A stretch of DNA of 33,168 nucleotides, taken from the NCBI GenBank assembly GCA_016217735.1, contig JACRGQ010000031.1, forward strand, positions 1-33,168, read 5' to 3'. Position numbers and translations under genes: made by a program. The notes below the pieces were generated by a model. That model searched no databases. It worked only from the letters and a program-made list of their open reading frames with translations, and had not been told where the DNA came from. Source of the stretch: Nitrospinota bacterium. Its GTDB lineage: Bacteria; Nitrospinota_A; UBA7883; JACRGQ01. Every line of letters begins with the position of its first letter. The stretch's first letter is position 1. Of the stretch, positions 17,322 through 29,081 are shown piece after piece.

Positions 17322-19511
17322 ATGAAGCGCGATAATCTTTCGGGTGATTTCTGGGGCGGCCTGACGGCCATGTTGATTGCCCTGCCCTCCGCCATCGCCT
17401 TTGGCGTCGCCATTTATTCCCCTTTTGGCGCTTCCTTTTCCGCGCAAGGGGCGATTGCGGGAATTCTTGGCGTGACGGCGCTTGGCCTTTTGGCCCCGGC
17501 GCTGGGCGGAACCAACCGCCTGATCACCGCCCCGTGCGCCCCGGCGGCGGCCGTTCTGACGGCGTTCGTCATCGAATACCTGCATAAAGGAAACGGCATT
17601 GAATCGGCCCTCCTGATGCTGGCCTTGTTGGGTTTGATCGCCGGAATTATTCAGGTCATCTTCGGGGCCGTCGGCCTTGGCACATTGATAAAATACATGC
17701 CGTACCCGGTCGTCAGCGGCTATCTCAGCGGCGTCGGTTTATACATTATCGCCAGCCAGGTGCCAAAATTCCTGGGGGTGCCTAAAAACGTCCATTTCTG
17801 GGAATCGCTCGCCTCGCTGAATTTATGGAATTGGGAGGGGATGGTGGTCGGCATGGTGACGATGGCGGCCATGCTGGGAGCCGCCAAAATCACCAAGGCC
17901 GTTCCGGCCGCCATAATTGCGCTGTTTGCCGGCATGCTTTCATATTTTCTGCTGGGGCTGGCGGACAGATCCTTGTTGACGCTTGCGGACAATCCCCTGG
18001 TTATCGGGCCTCTGGGCGGAGCGGGAGGCGGACTGGCGGAAGCCATAACCGGCCGCTGGCAGTCCTTTGGCGGCCTTCATCTGGCCGATTTCATGGGGCT
18101 GATGGAGCCGGCCATGACGCTGGCCGTGCTGCTTTCGATCGACACCCTTAAAACCTGCGTCGTTTTGGACAGCCTCACCAGTTCCCGGCACGACTCCAAC
18201 CGCGAGCTTGTGGCGCAAGGCGCCGGCAATATCGCATCGGCGGCGGTTGGGGGAATCCCCGGCGCGGGCACGATGGGGGCGACGCTGGTAAACATGTCAA
18301 GCGGCGCGTCGAGCCGCTTCTCGGGCATCATCGAGGGGATTTTGGCGCTCATCGCGTTTCTATTGCTGGGCGGCGTGATAGCCAGGGTGCCGATAGCCGC
18401 CTTGTCCGGCATTCTGATAGTAATCGGCTTTCGGATGATCGACAAACATACACTCGGCCTTTTGAAATCGCGCTCGACCGTCCTCGACTTTGCCGTGATC
18501 GCCGCGGTCGTCATCGTCTCGCTTACGGTAAGCCTGATCGCGGCCTCGGGCACCGGGGTCGTGCTTGCCGTCGCGTTGTTCATCCGCGAGCAGATCGGCG
18601 GCAGGGTCATCCGGAGCAAGACGTATGGCACCGAGATATCCTCCAAGCATATACGCCTGGAGAAGGAGATGGAGATACTGAAACAGCGCGGAAACCAGAT
18701 GGTGATCTTCGAATTGCAGGGGAGCCTCTTTTTCGGGACAACGGATCAGCTCTTTACCGCCATCGAGGAGGAGATAAAAACGCGAACCTACGTCATTTTG
18801 GACATGCGGCGCGTCCAAACGGTGGATATGACGGCCACGCATATGCTCGAACAGGTCAAGACCCGGCTCGCCGAACGCAACGGATTCCTGATTTTCAGCC
18901 AGATCCCCAAAAATATTCCAAGCGGAAAGGACATCCAGGAGTACTTTGACCAAGTGGGGCTGGTAAAATGGAAAAGCACGACAAGGGATTTCAACGAGCT
19001 TGACGCCGCCATTCAATGGGTGGAAGACCGCATCCTCAAGGGGGCCGCCGTGGAACGCGCCGAGGAAGAGCGCCTTAAGCTGCATGAACTGGAGCTTTTC
19101 AGGGGGCGGAAGGAAGAAACCCTGGCCGTCCTTGAGTCGCGGATGGAGAAGCGCTCGTTTAAGGCCGGCGAACGGATTTTTGCCTCCGGCGATCCCGGCG
19201 ACGAGCTTTTCCTGATACGAAGGGGGGAGGTTCGCATACTGCTTCCTTTGGATAAGAACCATACCCACCACATCGCCACATTCGGGCGGGGCACCTTTTT
19301 CGGCGAGATGTCTTTTCTGGACGGGAGCGCCCGGTCGGCGACCGCGCTCGCCTACACCGATTCCGATCTGTATGTGCTTTCGCGGAAAGCTTTTGACGAC
19401 CTCGCGGGGGACCACAAGATGGCCGCGATCAACCTGCTGGACGGCCTTGCGCGGCTGCTGGCAAGCCGGTTGCGCTACGCAAACGCCGAAATGCACGCCC
19501 TGCGGTCATAA
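17322..19511 (+). CDS. SulP-family anion transporter fused to STAS and cyclic-nucleotide-binding domains
   Basis: The 729-residue inner-membrane protein has a SulP core (about 1-430; roughly 10-14 hydrophobic helices starting GDFWGGLTAMLIALPSAIAFGVA), a STAS domain (about 450-570, with MVIFELQGSLFFGTTDQL and VILDMRRVQTVDMTA), a charged linker (ERAEEERLKLHELELFRGRKEE), and a cNMP-binding domain (about 590-715, ERIFASGDPGDELFLIRRGEVRI and GTFFGEMSFLDGSARSATA with the conserved Glu and Arg of the phosphate cassette). SulP proteins move sulfate, bicarbonate or carboxylates; the substrate is not evident. The cNMP module probably gates transport. ATG 17322 has AGGA a few bases upstream. It is transcribed alone, divergent from hemB. 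Confidence 0.92.
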   Translation: MKRDNLSGDFWGGLTAMLIALPSAIAFGVAIYSPFGASFSAQGAIAGILGVTALGLLAPALGGTNRLITAPCAPAAAVLTAFVIEYLHKGNGIESALLMLALLGLIAGIIQVIFGAVGLGTLIKYMPYPVVSGYLSGVGLYIIASQVPKFLGVPKNVHFWESLASLNLWNWEGMVVGMVTMAAMLGAAKITKAVPAAIIALFAGMLSYFLLGLADRSLLTLADNPLVIGPLGGAGGGLAEAITGRWQSFGGLHLADFMGLMEPAMTLAVLLSIDTLKTCVVLDSLTSSRHDSNRELVAQGAGNIASAAVGGIPGAGTMGATLVNMSSGASSRFSGIIEGILALIAFLLLGGVIARVPIAALSGILIVIGFRMIDKHTLGLLKSRSTVLDFAVIAAVVIVSLTVSLIAASGTGVVLAVALFIREQIGGRVIRSKTYGTEISSKHIRLEKEMEILKQRGNQMVIFELQGSLFFGTTDQLFTAIEEEIKTRTYVILDMRRVQTVDMTATHMLEQVKTRLAERNGFLIFSQIPKNIPSGKDIQEYFDQVGLVKWKSTTRDFNELDAAIQWVEDRILKGAAVERAEEERLKLHELELFRGRKEETLAVLESRMEKRSFKAGERIFASGDPGDELFLIRRGEVRILLPLDKNHTHHIATFGRGTFFGEMSFLDGSARSATALAYTDSDLYVLSRKAFDDLAGDHKMAAINLLDGLARLLASRLRYANAEMHALRS

Positions 19512-20056: not shown

Positions 20057-20562
20057 ATGAAAAAAAGCTGTTTCTGTTTCTTGCGGGGCTGTTTTTGGCC
20101 GTGGGGATAAGCGGCGACGCCTTCGCCGGACCGGGTAATCCCTGCGGGAAGAATCCGTGCGCCGCAAAAAATCCCTGTGGCGTGAAAAACCCTTGCGGGG
20201 CGAATCCCTGCGCCGCCAACCCGTGCGCCAAGGGGCAAAACAAGCCGATCCGCAACACCCATATCACCGACTACAAAAAGCTTGTGACCATGGGGGAGCG
20301 CCTCTGGAATGACGAAAAACTCGGCACGAGCGGTCTTTCCTGCATGTCGTGCCACGCCGATCATGAACATTTGAACCTCAACAAGGTAAAAGGATGGCCG
20401 CATTTCGTAAAAATGACCGGCGACATCGTTACGCTGGATCAAATGGTCAATTACTGCATGATAAACCCGATTGCGGGAGATCCGCTTGACCCGAACTCCA
20501 TCGAAATGACCGCCATGACCGCCTATTACCGGCAGTATGCGGCATCCTTCAAAAAGAAATAA
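20057..20562 (+). CDS. Exported monohaem cytochrome c with N-terminal Asn-Pro-Cys repeats (start codon out of frame)
   Basis: The body encodes a signal peptide core (KKLFLFLAGLFLAVGISGDAFA), six NPC repeats (NPCGK, NPCAAK, NPCGVK, NPCGA, NPCAA, NPCAK), then a c-type cytochrome domain: GERLWNDEKLGTSGLSCMSCHADHEH with one CxxCH (20341-20355) and Met residues near the end that could serve as sixth haem ligand. The corrected protein is about 168 residues and periplasmic. The only plausible start, ATG 20057, is followed by A7; one more A would join it to the signal peptide, whereas as written that frame stops at 20108. No in-frame ATG or GTG precedes the signal core, and TTG 20095 falls inside it. 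This may be a sequence error, phase variation or polymerase slippage. It is followed by the second NPC gene and a pentahaem cytochrome. Confidence 0.7.
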
Positions 20563-20589
20563 TGGATGGAAACGGCGCATGGTGCGTCC

Positions 20590-20598
20590 TGATATAAT
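20590..20598 (+). promoter_or_regulatory. Extended -10 promoter of the second NPC gene
   Basis: TGATATAAT is an extended -10 (TG-N-TATAAT) without a recognisable -35. Transcription would start near 20605, giving a leader of about 20 bases that contains the ribosome site AAAGGGA (20609-20615) for ATG 20624. Confidence 0.55.
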
Positions 20599-20623
20599 CG
20601 GTTTTATGAAAGGGAAAATTGAA

Positions 20624-20878
20624 ATGAAACGCATGACGAAACTGTTTGTTGCGGCGGTTCTAGCCTCCGCCATCGGCCTGGCCGGCACGCCCGCGTGGGC
20701 CGAGGGGAAGAACCCCTGCGGTAAGAACCCGTGCGCCGCGAAGAATCCCTGCGCCGCGAAAAACCCGTGCGCGGCGAATCCCTGTTCAATGAAGGGAATG
20801 AAACACGACAAGCAGGGAAAAACGAAAAACCCCTGCGCGAAGAATCCGTGCGCCAAGAACCCTTGCGGCAAAAAATAA
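20624..20878 (+). CDS. Small exported protein made of Asn-Pro-Cys repeats
   Basis: The 84-residue precursor starts at ATG 20624, with AAAGGGA 8 bases upstream. MKRMTKLFVAAVLASAIGLAGTPAWA is a signal peptide with an AWA cleavage site. The mature part, about 58 residues, is almost only NPC units: four or five NPC(G/A)(A)K repeats, a spacer SMKGMKHDKQGKTK, then three more, giving eight cysteines, all in NPC, with many lysines and no acidic cluster. There is no haem motif. The regular thiols suggest metal binding or a disulfide-linked scaffold, by inference. The same unit forms the N terminus of the cytochrome just upstream, so the two genes probably share origin and role. Its last codons overlap the start of the pentahaem cytochrome in another frame. 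Confidence 0.75.
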   Translation: MKRMTKLFVAAVLASAIGLAGTPAWAEGKNPCGKNPCAAKNPCAAKNPCAANPCSMKGMKHDKQGKTKNPCAKNPCAKNPCGKK

Positions 20879-22020
20879 GCTTCTTCGCATTTATCCTTTT
20901 ATCGGGAATTGCGCTCTCCCCCCTGTCTTCCACCGGGGGAGAGCCTTCCCTTTCAGGGCACTGGCATCGTCCCGCGCCCGCCGGAAAGGGTGATTTTTCA
21001 CTTTATCCCCAAAGTTGCGGCTCCTGTCATACCACGCAATACGAGGGGTGGAAGGAATCGCTCCATGCCAAAGCGGTGGGTCCGGGATTGCTGGGCCAAC
21101 TGGATGTTGGAGAATATCCTGAGACCGCGCTTTCATGTTATACCTGCCACGCGCCCCTTCTGGAGCAGCAGGAAGTTCAGGAAAAGGAAAACGAAAAATA
21201 TCATCCAAACCGCCGCTTCGATGCGGCATTGCAAAAATCAGGCGTAAGCTGCGCGGCATGTCACATACGTAACGGCAAAGTGGTTGGACCGCCCCCATCA
21301 GGCGGGCTGAAAACAGCAAAAGCTGATATAGGCAAACACGGCAAATCAGAATCGCGCGATTTTTTCCAAAAATCGGAATTCTGCGCCGCGTGCCACCAAT
21401 TGGATGAAGGTTACAGCCTCAACGGGAAGTTACTTACAAACACCTACCGCGAATGGAAGCAAAGCGCGTGGGCGCAACAGGGGGTGCGGTGCCAGAGCTG
21501 CCATATGCCGGATCGTGCCCATCTTTTCAAAGGCATTCATGATAAAGAAATGACGCTTCGCGCGGTCGACATCTCCATTTCGCGGGAGGGAGGCCCGGCG
21601 AAATTGACCATTTCAAACATTGGCGCGGGACATTATTTCCCGACCTATGTCACGCCGCTTATTGCAATAAAAGCGTTTTCCGTGGATACGTCGGGAAAAA
21701 CCATTGCCGGATCGCAGAGAGAGGATTTTATCGGCCGCAAAGTAAGCATCGATCTTGAAAAAGAGGAGTTTGATACCCGTATCCCTCCCAACGGAACCCA
21801 TCAGTTCGTCTACGTTGGAGCAACGGCTGGAACAGCAACCGTTTTATTTGAAGTATGGGTTTATCCCGATCAATTCTATTACAACCTTTTTAAATCATTG
21901 CTGGAGGGCAACAGCGCCTCCGACCCGGAGCTTATCAAGCAAGCGATGGGAAATGCAAAATCCACCCCCTATCTCTTGTGGAAAGGGGAAGCGGCGGTGA
22001 AAAGCCGGACAAAGCAATAA
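20848..22020 (+). CDS. Exported pentahaem cytochrome c (cytochrome c554-like)
   Basis: A non-ATG start must be used: GTG 20848 (MRQEPLRQK, a possible GAAG upstream) or TTG 20863 (MRQK), both inside the end of the second NPC gene. Either precedes a signal peptide (ISFFAFILLSGIALSPLSS). Five CxxCH haem sites follow: CGSCH, CYTCH, CAACH, CAACH, CQSCH. The context of the first (SCGSCHTTQYEGWKESLHAKA) is typical of the cytochrome c554 family, which passes electrons in the periplasm. The C-terminal 160 residues lack haem sites and look like a beta-rich domain (NIGAGHYFPTYVTPLIAIKAF) seen behind such haem clusters. There are about 390 residues from GTG. It is the last gene of the three-gene redox cluster; directly after its stop begins a decayed region. 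Confidence 0.85.
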   Translation: MRQEPLRQKISFFAFILLSGIALSPLSSTGGEPSLSGHWHRPAPAGKGDFSLYPQSCGSCHTTQYEGWKESLHAKAVGPGLLGQLDVGEYPETALSCYTCHAPLLEQQEVQEKENEKYHPNRRFDAALQKSGVSCAACHIRNGKVVGPPPSGGLKTAKADIGKHGKSESRDFFQKSEFCAACHQLDEGYSLNGKLLTNTYREWKQSAWAQQGVRCQSCHMPDRAHLFKGIHDKEMTLRAVDISISREGGPAKLTISNIGAGHYFPTYVTPLIAIKAFSVDTSGKTIAGSQREDFIGRKVSIDLEKEEFDTRIPPNGTHQFVYVGATAGTATVLFEVWVYPDQFYYNLFKSLLEGNSASDPELIKQAMGNAKSTPYLLWKGEAAVKSRTKQ

Positions 22021-25252: not shown

Positions 25253-26683
25253 TTGAAGGGGGAGCTTCGGTCGCTGCGGGGAATCATTCTCCGCCGCCTC
25301 GCGCTCATCAGCGTTATCGGCGTGGGACTCGTCTGCATCGTTCTTTCCTACCTCCTTTACCAGCGGGACAAGGTATCCATTTATAACCAAGCCAGGGGAG
25401 AGGCCGAGCTGATCCGCACCGGGCTGCTTTCGGTGATGATGGCAACCGGCGACCCGGAAGCGGTGCGCGGCACGGTTGATAACTTCAAAAAACAGGTGAA
25501 GTTCGATTTCCGCATGGTGCGCGGGGAGCATATCCGCAAGCAGTTCGGCATGCGCGATGGGGAAGAGCCGCACGACGGCATGGAGCGGGCGGTGCTTCAA
25601 GGCGCCCTGCCTGAATACGCCGAACTGGACGGCGCCTCCTTCCGCCTCGTCTTCCCCTTCAAGGCGGATGAACGGTGCGGCCGCTGCCACGTGGGTCTTG
25701 ACGGCAACCCGGTCGCCGCCGGGACGGTATTGGGGATGTCGGAAATGACCTTTAACGTCGCCGAATGGCGCGATGCGTCGATCCGTCTCACCACCCATGT
25801 GGTGACCGGCATGCTGCTCATCATCCTGGCGCTGGGGGGGGCGCTTTATTGGCTCTTTGCCAAAGAGGTGATGGAACCGGTGCATGACATAGCCAATACC
25901 ATCGCCCGCATGGAAGAAGATGGGGCCGTTTCCGCGCTTGCGCCCGCCACCTCGCGCGAGATCGCCATCCTCAACCGGCAGGTGGAGCAGATGTTCAAGT
26001 CGCTGGAGGACGCCCGCCATGCCCACGAGAGCGCGCTGGAAGAAGAACGGCGGAAAATGGCGCAGATACGCTCCTTCGCGCTGGAACAGGCCGACGCGCT
26101 GGGGATAACCGACGCCACCGAGGTGGATCTCATCATAAAACGCCTCTCGTACGCGGTGCAGGAGGTGGAAAAAAACGACATGCTGAAGCAGGTGGCCGAT
26201 TTCGTCACCCTGGAGAAAAAAGAGATGGTGCTGGGCAATGACCGCCGCCTCATACGCCCCACCGCGCTCTACCTCACCAACCTGATCGCCAATTCCCAGG
26301 GAAGCCTGAAAAAGGGATCGATGGAACTGGCGCTGGAAGAGGCCATCACCAACGCCATCGTGCATGGCAACCTGGAGGTTTCCTCAAAACTCAAGGAAGA
26401 TGATTTCGATCTGTTCGAGCGGGCCGTGGGCGAACGGATGGCTCTGCCGCCGTTCAGCGAACGCGGCGTGAAGATCAGCTATGACTACGACCGGCAGAGC
26501 GCCACCTTCCGGATCGAGGACGAAGGTCCCGGCTTTGATTGGTCCCATTTCCTCAAGAAAGAGGTCGACCCGGAGTTGCTCCCCCACGGCCGCGGCATCA
26601 TCATTATCCGCACCTTCGCCTCCGCCGTCGCCTATAACGAAGCGGGGAACGTGCTCACCCTGACCTTCGATTTGGGGGCCTGA
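25253..26683 (+). CDS. Membrane haem-c sensor with a C-terminal RsbW-like ATPase domain
   Basis: The 476-residue protein starts at TTG 25253, behind a very strong ribosome site. Order: membrane helix (about 17-36), a periplasmic sensor domain with one haem-c site CGRCH (142-146) in FPFKADERCGRCHVGLDG, a second helix (about 184-206), a HAMP-like linker (EVMEPVHDIANTIARME), a coiled coil (about 245-280), and a HATPase domain (about 340-475) with N-box EEAITNAIVHGN, DEGPGFDW and PHGRGIIIIRTF. There is no phosphoacceptor His box like that of standard histidine kinases, and the ATPase looks like the RsbW/SpoIIAB type that phosphorylates anti-anti-sigma partners. The haem probably senses redox state or a gas, as in other periplasmic haem-c sensors. 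The FHA gene follows after 46 bases. The partner is unknown. Confidence 0.8.
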   Translation: MKGELRSLRGIILRRLALISVIGVGLVCIVLSYLLYQRDKVSIYNQARGEAELIRTGLLSVMMATGDPEAVRGTVDNFKKQVKFDFRMVRGEHIRKQFGMRDGEEPHDGMERAVLQGALPEYAELDGASFRLVFPFKADERCGRCHVGLDGNPVAAGTVLGMSEMTFNVAEWRDASIRLTTHVVTGMLLIILALGGALYWLFAKEVMEPVHDIANTIARMEEDGAVSALAPATSREIAILNRQVEQMFKSLEDARHAHESALEEERRKMAQIRSFALEQADALGITDATEVDLIIKRLSYAVQEVEKNDMLKQVADFVTLEKKEMVLGNDRRLIRPTALYLTNLIANSQGSLKKGSMELALEEAITNAIVHGNLEVSSKLKEDDFDLFERAVGERMALPPFSERGVKISYDYDRQSATFRIEDEGPGFDWSHFLKKEVDPELLPHGRGIIIIRTFASAVAYNEAGNVLTLTFDLGA

Positions 26684-26713
26684 TTCCCATACCCATCCGT
26701 TCCCGTGATGGGG

Positions 26714-26719
26714 TATAAT
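26714..26719 (+). promoter_or_regulatory. -10 element 10 bases before the FHA start codon
   Basis: GGGTATAATCC contains a consensus TATAAT. Transcription should start about 26726, only 3-4 bases before ATG 26730, so the transcript would be nearly leaderless; there is no ribosome site. Confidence 0.55.
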
Positions 26720-26729
26720 CCAGCCCCAT

Positions 26730-27440
26730 ATGGCAAGACTGGTGGTCAAGCTCAACAACGAAGTGGTGAAAGAACAGCCCCTCGCCGCGGGCGTCGTTTT
26801 CGGACGCGAAACGGGGGACATCGTCCTTAAAAACCCCGCCGTTTCCGCCAAGCACGCGCGCATCGCCGTGGAGAAAAACCATTTCATCCTGCACGACCTC
26901 AAAAGCACCAACGGCACGTTCGTCAACAAAGGGCGGATAACCAGCCAGGAACTGCATCACGGCGACGTCATCAACATCGGCAAATTCGAAATCCTTTTCG
27001 TCAACGAAGAGGAGGCAAAGACCTCATCGGATTTCTTCGGCGCCGCCGAGGTGGCCGGCATGACCGTCATGATCAACGCCGAAGAAATGATGAAACAGCA
27101 AAAAGCCAAAGAAGAGGAGATGAAGCGCAAGAGCGAAGCGGCGCAGCTCATCGTCATTATGGATCAAAGCGCCAGCGGCTCCGGCAGGCTGGTGTTCCAC
27201 AAGCTGGACAAGGAAACGACGCTGCTCGGCTCCGGCGACGGCGCGGATATCAAGACCCCCGGCATCACCATCGGCGCCATCGCCGCCGCCATCACCCGGC
27301 GCGCCGGGAAATACAGCATCAAGCCGATGGGGGGGTTCACCAAGCCGAAACTGAACGGCGAAAAAATAACCGGTGAAAAGGATTTGAAAAGCAAGGACCG
27401 GATCGAACTGGGCCAATACCAGTTTGAGTTCCGGGTCTAG
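26730..27440 (+). CDS. Tandem FHA-domain protein
   Basis: The 236-residue cytosolic protein has a complete N-terminal FHA domain (about 1-95) with the phosphothreonine-binding residues Gly25-Arg26, Ser39 and His42, and STNGTFVN (about 59-66). A charged linker follows (EEMMKQQKAKEEEMKRKSEAAQ), then a second FHA-like domain (about 137-236) in which the motif is degenerate (LLGSGDGADIKTPG, no SxxH), so it may be structural. FHA proteins read phosphothreonine on partner proteins. It lies between the haem sensor and nadB on the same strand. A good -10 sits 10 bases before ATG 26730 and no ribosome site is visible, suggesting a leaderless transcript. The link to the sensor is by position only. Confidence 0.88.
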   Translation: MARLVVKLNNEVVKEQPLAAGVVFGRETGDIVLKNPAVSAKHARIAVEKNHFILHDLKSTNGTFVNKGRITSQELHHGDVINIGKFEILFVNEEEAKTSSDFFGAAEVAGMTVMINAEEMMKQQKAKEEEMKRKSEAAQLIVIMDQSASGSGRLVFHKLDKETTLLGSGDGADIKTPGITIGAIAAAITRRAGKYSIKPMGGFTKPKLNGEKITGEKDLKSKDRIELGQYQFEFRV

Positions 27441-27464: not shown

Positions 27465-29081
27465 ATGGCACGCACCGGCGCTTCCCCCGTTTTAACGTTC
27501 GACTACCTTGTCATAGGCTCCGGCATGGCGGGGCTGATTTTCGCCCTCGACGCGGCCCGCGCGGGGCGCGTGGCGATCATCACCAAGCGGGAGATGAAAG
27601 AGTCCAACACCCAGTACGCGCAGGGGGGGATCGCCGCCGTCACGTCGCTGGACGACACCTTTGAGCTGCATGTGCAGGACACGCTGAAGGCGGGGGACGG
27701 GCTGTGCCGGGAAGAAGCGGTCCGCCTGCTGGTGGAGGCCGGTCCCGACGCCATTGAATACCTCATCGGCATCGGCGCGCGCTTCACGCGGCAGGACGGC
27801 GGCCCCGGCGCGCCGCTCTCGCTGCACCGCGAGGGGGGCCACAGCAAGCGCCGCATCATCCACACCGAAGACCTCACCGGCCGGGAGATCGAGCGCGCGC
27901 TCATCGCCGCCGCCCGCCTGGAAAAAAACATCACCGTAATGGAGCACCACACCGCCATCGACCTCGTGCTGCAATCGAAGATCGAAGGAACGGGCGGCCC
28001 GGCGCGGGTGGCCGGGGCGTTCGTGCTGGACGCCGCCGCCGGCATCGTGAAAACCGTCCTCGCCCCCGCCACCTTCATGGCGGCCGGCGGCATGGGGAAA
28101 GTCTACCTCTACACCACGAATCCGGACATCTCTTCCGGCGACGGCATAGCGATGGCCTACCGCGCCGGGGCCGGCATCGCCAATATGGAGTTCATGCAGT
28201 TCCACCCCACCTGCCTCTACCACCCGGAGGTGAAATCGTTTCTCATCACCGAGGCGATGCGGGGGGAGGGGGCGCTGCTGCGGCTGGTCACCGGCGAAAC
28301 GTTCATGGAGAAATACCACCCGATGGGCTGCCTGGCCCCGCGCGACGTGGTGGCCCGCGCCATCGACACCGAGATGAAAAAGCGGGGCGACGACTACGTG
28401 CATCTCGACGCCACGCATTTGCCGCCGGAGACGGTGCGGGAAAAATTCCCCAACATTTACCGCACATTGCTGTCGCACGGGCTGGACATAACAAAGGACA
28501 AGATGCCGGTGGTGCCCGCCGCGCACTACATCTGCGGCGGGATCAATGTGGATTTATGGGGGCGCACCTCGCTGCCGGGCCTCTACGCCGGCGGTGAAAA
28601 CGCCTGCACCGGCGTGCATGGCGCCAACCGCCTCGCCAGCAACAGCCTGCTGGAGGCCATCGTATTCAGCCGCCGCGCCGCGCAAAAAGCGGCGGAAGAA
28701 TGGGCGCCGCGCTCCATCAACATCGTCAACCCCTGGTCGGCGGGAAACGCCGTCGATTCGGACGAGCAGGTGGTCATCGCCCAGAACTGGGACGAGATAC
28801 GCCGCACCATGTGGAATTACGTCGGCATCGTCCGCTCCGACAAACGGCTGGTGCGCGCCCAGCGGCGCATCAAGCTGGTGCGCGATGAAGTGAAGCAGTA
28901 TTATTGGGACTTCAACGTAACCTCGGACCTCATCGAACTGCGCAACATCCTCACCTGCGCCGACCTCGTCATCGAAAGCGCCATGCTCCGCCGCGAAAGC
29001 CGCGGCCTCCATTACAATATCGATTGTCCGGCCAAGGAATCCGTCCCGCGCGACACCATCCTCCGCTCCGCCGTGAAATAA
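27465..29081 (+). CDS. nadB: L-aspartate oxidase
   Basis: NadB is the FAD enzyme that oxidises aspartate to iminoaspartate, the first step of de novo NAD synthesis. The 538-residue protein has the FAD dinucleotide fold (YLVIGSGMAGLIFALDAA), NTQYAQGGIAAV, the substrate loop with HREGGHSKRRIIH, the FMQFHPT segment, ITEAMRGEGA, and the catalytic end VPAAHYICGGINVD..LPGLYAGGENACTGVHGANRLASNSLLEA. These HxxGGHxxxRI and HPT features favour aspartate oxidase over succinate dehydrogenase flavoprotein. ATG 27465 follows the FHA gene by 24 bases with no clear ribosome site. nadA and nadC are not in the window. The dispersed repeats downstream may end transcription. Confidence 0.95.
   Translation: MARTGASPVLTFDYLVIGSGMAGLIFALDAARAGRVAIITKREMKESNTQYAQGGIAAVTSLDDTFELHVQDTLKAGDGLCREEAVRLLVEAGPDAIEYLIGIGARFTRQDGGPGAPLSLHREGGHSKRRIIHTEDLTGREIERALIAAARLEKNITVMEHHTAIDLVLQSKIEGTGGPARVAGAFVLDAAAGIVKTVLAPATFMAAGGMGKVYLYTTNPDISSGDGIAMAYRAGAGIANMEFMQFHPTCLYHPEVKSFLITEAMRGEGALLRLVTGETFMEKYHPMGCLAPRDVVARAIDTEMKKRGDDYVHLDATHLPPETVREKFPNIYRTLLSHGLDITKDKMPVVPAAHYICGGINVDLWGRTSLPGLYAGGENACTGVHGANRLASNSLLEAIVFSRRAAQKAAEEWAPRSINIVNPWSAGNAVDSDEQVVIAQNWDEIRRTMWNYVGIVRSDKRLVRAQRRIKLVRDEVKQYYWDFNVTSDLIELRNILTCADLVIESAMLRRESRGLHYNIDCPAKESVPRDTILRSAVK

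Follow-up and report, generated by a model that had tools for sequence, protein, structure and literature searches.

A predicted haem-c receptor joined to an RsbW-type ATPase in Nitrospinota, and a candidate partner-switching circuit for it

To which protein would a membrane receptor of the Nitrospinota pass its signal when it ends in an RsbW-type ATPase and its gene neighbor encodes an FHA protein? The question arises from the window analyzed here, a stretch of 33,168 nucleotides that is contig C31 of a 2.5-Mb draft genome (labelled G000). The features needed to approach it are as follows.

25253..26683, + strand: sensor kinase gene (open reading frame, 476 aa)
25274..25366, + strand: first transmembrane segment, about residues 8-38 (hydropathy; helix in the AlphaFold model)
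25364..25780, + strand: predicted periplasmic haem-c sensor domain, about residues 38-176 (GSU0935 profile match; PF21563; Tll0287)
25676..25690, + strand: CxxCH haem-attachment motif CGRCH, residues 142-146 (invariant in orthologues)
25775..25873, + strand: second transmembrane segment, about residues 175-207 (hydropathy)
25853..26011, + strand: HAMP, residues 201-253 (PF00672, 16.9 bits, below cut-off)
26012..26212, + strand: helical linker, residues 254-320 (no conserved His)
26213..26680, + strand: RsbW/SpoIIAB-type ATPase domain, residues 321-476 (PF13581, 59 bits; structure matches)
26339..26371, + strand: ATPase N box (sequence motif)
26519..26536, + strand: ATPase G1 box (sequence motif)
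26588..26596, + strand: ATPase G2 box (sequence motif)
26730..27440, + strand: FHA gene (open reading frame, 236 aa)
27465..29081, + strand: nadB, L-aspartate oxidase (NCBIfam NF006567 above cut-off; conserved neighbor of the FHA gene)

The gene order on the + strand is gatC (a presumptive name), gatA, the sensor gene, the FHA gene and nadB, with gaps of 260 bp between gatA and the sensor gene, 46 bp between the sensor and FHA genes, and 24 bp between the FHA gene and nadB. The sensor gene starts with a TTG codon preceded by CGGAGGGGGG, and a scan for sigma-70-type promoters returned 0 against 0.7 expected. No STAS gene adjoins the sensor gene in the window. The sole STAS match found there (18690-18914) belongs to a SulP-type transporter encoded at 17322-19511, in which a C-terminal cyclic-nucleotide-binding domain was recognized by eye. 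The STAS domain of a SulP protein is part of the transporter, and this one, 5.7 kb upstream and in such a transporter, was set aside as a partner of the sensor. At 20095-22020, small proteins with NPCAAKNPC-type repeats adjoin a multihaem cytochrome carrying several CxxCH motifs; this cytochrome suggests that c-type cytochrome maturation may take place in the host organism.

The sensor was predicted to combine a periplasmic CxxCH domain and an RsbW-like kinase in one protein, and the open reading frame does contain both halves, laid out as a transmembrane segment, a periplasmic domain with CGRCH, a second transmembrane segment, HAMP, a helical linker and an RsbW/SpoIIAB-type ATPase. We aligned 16 copies from 15 genomes, leaving out L102, L104, L106 and others that are truncated at contig ends. 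The CxxCH motif is kept in all 19 sensor copies, that of the window included, in which this region escapes contig ends, a count that omits L096 and L113, both cut by contig ends. A profile of the sensor copies matched the c-haem domain of the chemoreceptor GSU0935 (3b42) over residues 40-142 (E = 3.1e-5). PF21563 ("Mcp40H-20_sensor") scored 19.4 bits on the window protein against a cut-off of 27 and matched all 16 aligned orthologues at E ≤ 0.1 (best 2.8e-7), while PF11845 had no match in the window protein and matched 5 of the 16 orthologues (best E = 0.01). As both families fall below the Pfam cut-off in the window protein, we describe its sensor domain as related to sCache_heme rather than as a member of that family. 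PF00672 (HAMP) was matched by 10 of 16 orthologues at E ≤ 0.1. In the AlphaFold model of the sensor (pLDDT 80, pTM 0.42), the periplasmic part matched WalK (Z 8.7) and Tll0287 (Z 8.5, 129 residues, 4.3 Å) in what amounts to a tie at middling Z scores; given the pTM, the arrangement of the domains in the model was not interpreted. Taken from motif and profile, the receptor probably carries its haem outside the cell.

HATPase_c_2 (PF13581; 59 bits against a cut-off of 27.4) is the sole domain above the Pfam cut-off in the window sensor, and all 16 orthologues match it at E ≤ 0.1. The motifs that we sought, an N box of the form ExxxNAxxHG, a G1 box DxGxG and a G2 box GRG, are all present. Residues E363, N367, H371, G372, D423, G425, G427 and G446-R447-G448 are invariant in the 16 copies, two of which have NS in place of NA in the N box, and the ATPase has an insert between the N and G1 boxes (about residues 374-404). 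Among the matches listed, the closest structure to the modelled ATPase is LvrC (9qih; Z 17.7, 151 residues, 2.6 Å), followed by SpoIIAB (Z 14.4), RsbW (13.9) and UsfX (12.6); SiaB reached a Z of 10.2, and histidine-kinase catalytic domains stayed well below the best matches at 7.7 or less. Over the ATPase, the sensor profile gave E values of 4.5e-9 for LvrC (9qih, deposited as SenB) and 0.014 for RsbW.

Two readings of the locus can be weighed on this evidence, one concerning the nature of the ATPase and the other its neighbor. The sensor-TM-HAMP-helix layout is typical of histidine kinases, and HATPase_c is weakly matched in 6 of 16 orthologues, so the protein might be a histidine kinase of unusual type, or take part in a phosphorelay, by way of a cryptic His or a partner HPt. 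However, a domain scan found no HisKA-type phosphoacceptor domain in any of the 16 orthologues, the N box is of the HATPase_c_2 type, and no His is conserved within residues 203-350, in which no column has His in more than 6 of the 16 copies. The absence of the phosphoacceptor led us to reject a histidine-kinase identity, and we regard this reading, the cryptic form included, as very improbable; a conserved His box in the linker had been named in advance as a finding against the prediction, and the RsbW-type assignment is supported. The second reading, which is part of the original prediction, holds that the sensor and the FHA protein work together as a phospho-signalling pair. The genes share a strand across the 46-bp gap, G000 has three Pkinase matches, and FHA1, one of two FHA stretches in the protein, keeps the GR, SxxH and STNG residues in all 14 orthologues read, while FHA2 does not have them. 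These residues serve in phosphothreonine binding. A neighborhood survey nevertheless showed that the pairing is not kept in relatives. In adjacency read from tblastn or genome-search coordinates, the sensor and FHA genes are neighbors only in G000, G001, G003 and G008, that is, in 4 of 20 sensor-bearing genomes; in G002, of the same genus as the window, they lie apart, and in G007 both are at contig ends. FHA orthologues occur in 16 of 24 Nitrospinota genomes, in every one of them immediately upstream of nadB and co-oriented with it, and no FHA orthologue was found in five sensor-bearing genomes (G006, G009, G010, G019 and G023). Judged from gene order, the sensor-FHA neighborhood is recent and not a conserved unit, and on the survey we rejected the FHA protein as the sensor's partner; we attach only the slightest probability to the pair. 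The FHA protein, whose best NCBIfam score was for OdhI, below the cut-off, offers a separate lead as a candidate phosphothreonine-reading regulator of NAD synthesis.

Searching with the profile of 16 copies, we identified sensor orthologues in 20 of the 24 Nitrospinota genomes, those of G002, G009, G016 and G023 only as pieces broken by contig ends; none was found in G004, G005, G014 or G021. The two halves were joined in none of 361 other genomes (E ≤ 1e-12, with scoring limited to four candidates in each genome). Outside Nitrospinota, the ATPase half was found in proteins of about 300 aa, and the two that were scanned (L034 and L039) are Rec-HATPase_c_2 proteins. Further, in a pattern scan of 63 loci, only L031-L033 extend into the sensor half or are truncated ahead of it. 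Within this sample, the fusion of the sensor to the ATPase looks particular to Nitrospinota.

The original prediction had the sensor feeding a partner-switching circuit without an obvious STAS partner nearby. Locally this is correct, as no STAS or PP2C gene lies beside the sensor gene in any locus read. It does not extend to the whole genome, where a candidate operon is present on contig C55 (L118:1837-4689). This operon encodes, consecutively, a Rec-HATPase_c_2 protein (276 aa), a haem-c-HAMP-PP2C phosphatase (550 aa) and a STAS protein (111 aa, motif NSSGLG), the last of which we use as the founder of a family termed STAS-B. The phosphatase has a CHGCH motif, a PF21563 match of 27.0 bits (at the cut-off), HAMP and SpoIIE, and the SiaA model scored 59 bits on its PP2C, below the SiaA cut-off. 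Kinase, STAS and PP2C phosphatase are thus all encoded in G000, and the circuit part of the prediction holds in so far as the kinase is of RsbW type and the other components exist. The STAS partner of the sensor is probably encoded elsewhere in the genome, with C55 as the candidate. Other non-SulP STAS matches, three or more of them, are present in G000 as well, and its free STAS proteins include those on C4, C19 and C50. SpoIIE-type PP2C and STAS were found in all 11 genomes searched first, G000 included; among the other 13, SpoIIE was found in 10 and STAS in 12.

In the window's own family, denoted f1, a PP2C gene adjoins STAS-B in 8 of 11 genomes (G000 plus G001, G002, G003, G004, G006, G007 and G008), and all eight of these PP2Cs have CxxCH. 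Hence, a kinase and a phosphatase of this family both appear to bear haem-c domains of similar type. The PP2C profile also gave a long match in G023 (C85). In G005 (L232:1901-4732), a haem-c region of the type found on the PP2C is fused to an apparent hybrid histidine kinase, as recognized by eye, in a protein of 944 aa, which would be a swap of the output domain.

Close orthologues of the C55 STAS (E < 1e-37) are present in 18 of the 24 genomes. Sensor and STAS-B occur together in 17, STAS-B alone in one (G004), the sensor alone in three (G009, G020 and G023) and neither in three (G005, G014 and G021), giving a Fisher p of 0.035 for co-occurrence in a test that ignores kinship, genome reduction and genome size; G005, G009 and G014 are the smallest genomes. 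Among the exceptions, G004 has STAS-B and the haem-c PP2C with no sensor kinase found, G020 and G023 have the sensor with no close STAS-B found, and G009 (92% complete, 270 contigs) has the sensor with no STAS or SpoIIE match.

The Rec-ATPases encoded before STAS-B differ between families. Outside f1, the N, G1 and G2 boxes are missing in all seven loci read (G012, G013, G015, G017, G018, G019 and G022). Within f1, the boxes are intact in all five loci read, a count in which the G001 box, EMVVNAIKHG, was entered by eye. No Rec open reading frame was found beside STAS-B in G004, G006, G007, G010, G011 or G016, although in G007 a HATPase_c_2 match lies beside the operon all the same. Intact and motif-less Rec-ATPases show homology over their whole length (hhalign 99.5%, E = 2.8e-23), and the motif-less ones are apparent pseudokinases. 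Motif-less Rec proteins beside STAS-B were recorded at L203, L204, L205, L206, L207, L208 and L210. In G012, G013, G017, G019 and G020, all of which have SpoIIE, no HATPase_c_2 protein other than the haem-c sensor was found at E < 1e-8, a statement that applies to this family, this threshold and draft genomes, weaker matches having been listed as far as E = 1.3e-5; in the first four of these genomes, STAS-B is accompanied by a motif-less Rec-ATPase. If STAS-B is phosphorylated in those four, the haem-c sensor would be the leading candidate for its kinase, by elimination. The decay of STAS-B's own kinase where the haem-c kinase is alone favors STAS-B as the target. In the f1 loci read, STAS-B comes with a Rec-kinase whose boxes are intact and so would not need the haem-c kinase there.

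The sequences themselves show the domain layout of the sensor, its motifs and their conservation, the C55 operon and the motif loss in the Rec-ATPases outside f1. Based on these patterns, we propose a mechanism in which haem attachment, the ligand, kinase activity, the choice of STAS protein, the sign of the regulation and the final target are inferred. In it, a Cache-like domain in the periplasm, to which haem c is covalently attached, would read NO or redox state and pass the signal through the second transmembrane segment, HAMP and the helical linker to the RsbW/SpoIIAB-type ATPase. The ATPase, probably as a dimer, would phosphorylate a Ser or Thr of a free STAS protein, most likely STAS-B (C55 in the window's genome), which would pass the signal on to a sigma factor or an enzyme. 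In f1, a second haem-c receptor, the HAMP-PP2C encoded beside STAS-B, would remove the phosphate, which could place both arms of the partner switch under the haem signal. It is to our minds an evenly balanced proposition that a partner switch has the sensor as its haem-c-gated Ser/Thr kinase and, in f1, a haem-c-gated phosphatase working against it. We advance more tentatively, as possible only, the narrower version in which two c-haem receptors act in push-pull on STAS-B itself and the haem-c kinase is the sole kinase of the circuit where the Rec-ATPase has decayed. The C55 operon and the pseudokinase pattern strengthen the partner-switch reading.

Two alternatives keep the haem-c receptor and the RsbW-type ATPase and change what the ATPase acts on. 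The haem-c-gated kinase might act on another free STAS (C4, C19 or C50) or on several, leaving STAS-B to be served only by the Rec-ATPase and PP2C. The further non-SulP STAS matches in G000 would supply such targets, the sensor never adjoins STAS-B in the loci read, and the sensor occurs in G020 with a free STAS but without a close STAS-B; however, STAS-B and the sensor are found together in 17 genomes, and it is STAS-B's kinase that has decayed in genomes whose only other kinase found is the haem-c one, and we regard this alternative as unlikely, though by no means negligible. The ATPase might instead act as a haem-gated, anti-sigma-like binder whose sequestration and release of a sigma factor, or of another protein, depend on ATP, with no STAS phosphorylation. 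Its best structural match, LvrC, is proposed as a Rec-controlled anti-sigma factor in the available portion of its description, in which STAS phosphorylation is not among the findings described (PMC13269768), and the G009 sensor occurs without any STAS match. Yet the residues needed by RsbW-type kinases are invariant in all 16 copies, and most sensor-bearing genomes possess STAS and PP2C, which makes pure sequestration improbable.

The proposed haem-c-gated kinase combines elements known from separate systems. Histidine kinases, chemoreceptors and cyclic-nucleotide enzymes with a c-haem sensor in the periplasm are known, and partner-switch kinases are usually soluble and sense via separate proteins. 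RsbW and SpoIIAB of Bacillus, soluble single-domain proteins without a receptor, share the ATPase fold and motifs of the sensor (Z 13.9-14.4), whereas in the sensor the ATPase ends a transmembrane haem-c receptor and has the insert between the N and G1 boxes. The SiaA/SiaB/SiaC system of Pseudomonas aeruginosa likewise has a membrane PP2C and an RsbW-type kinase; SiaA and SiaB act on one small protein, SiaB is soluble, and the system is not known to have a haem-c domain. The haem of the stressosome is a cytoplasmic b-type haem in an RsbR globin. Gas-gated partner switching is likewise a feature of the haem-sensing Gram-negative stressosome, as described in the available portion of PMC4976288; unlike the RsbR globin stressosome, the window sensor is a predicted c-haem transmembrane kinase. 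LvrC of Leptospira (9qih), the closest solved relative of the output, is also an RsbW-type protein under sensor control, a Rec-ATPase response regulator whose receiver is served by a histidine kinase (PMC13269768, available portion); its input is thus a receiver domain, whereas the window sensor is predicted to take its input from haem in a periplasmic part of the chain that also contains the ATPase. The sCache_heme domains (DUF3365/Tll0287, GSU0582 and GSU0935) are periplasmic c-haem domains with CxxCH, a motif shared by the sensor, whose domain is predicted to be of this kind. According to the portion of their paper that is available, Deshpande and colleagues report NO sensing by c-haem Cache domains joined to signalling modules (PMC12889525). 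The outputs named in that portion are histidine kinase, MCP, GGDEF/EAL and cyclase; HATPase_c_2, the output of the window sensor, and SpoIIE are not among them (PMC12889525). No description of haem c with HATPase_c_2 or SpoIIE was found in the literature searched, which leaves subscription papers outside, so this absence weighs little. If the proposal is true, extracytoplasmic gas or redox sensing would lead directly into Ser/Thr partner switching in Nitrospinota. A haem-c kinase with a haem-c phosphatase would make a simple push-pull design, and the pseudokinase pattern singles out one STAS family, STAS-B, as the first candidate.

The surroundings of the sensor gene vary among the genomes. 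One sensor copy in G010 abuts nadB without an FHA gene, and nadA adjoins the sensor in G006 and G009. At several loci of other families, the sensor gene lies between a gene for a membrane protein linked to lon and a cbiX-like gene (lon and cbiX being presumptive names). A membrane protein of about 370-400 aa is encoded directly 5' of the sensor at five loci of other families (L104, L107, L108, L109 and L111). The one at L109:6978-8090, which has no Pfam match, comprises 371 aa and begins with an N-terminal hydrophobic stretch.
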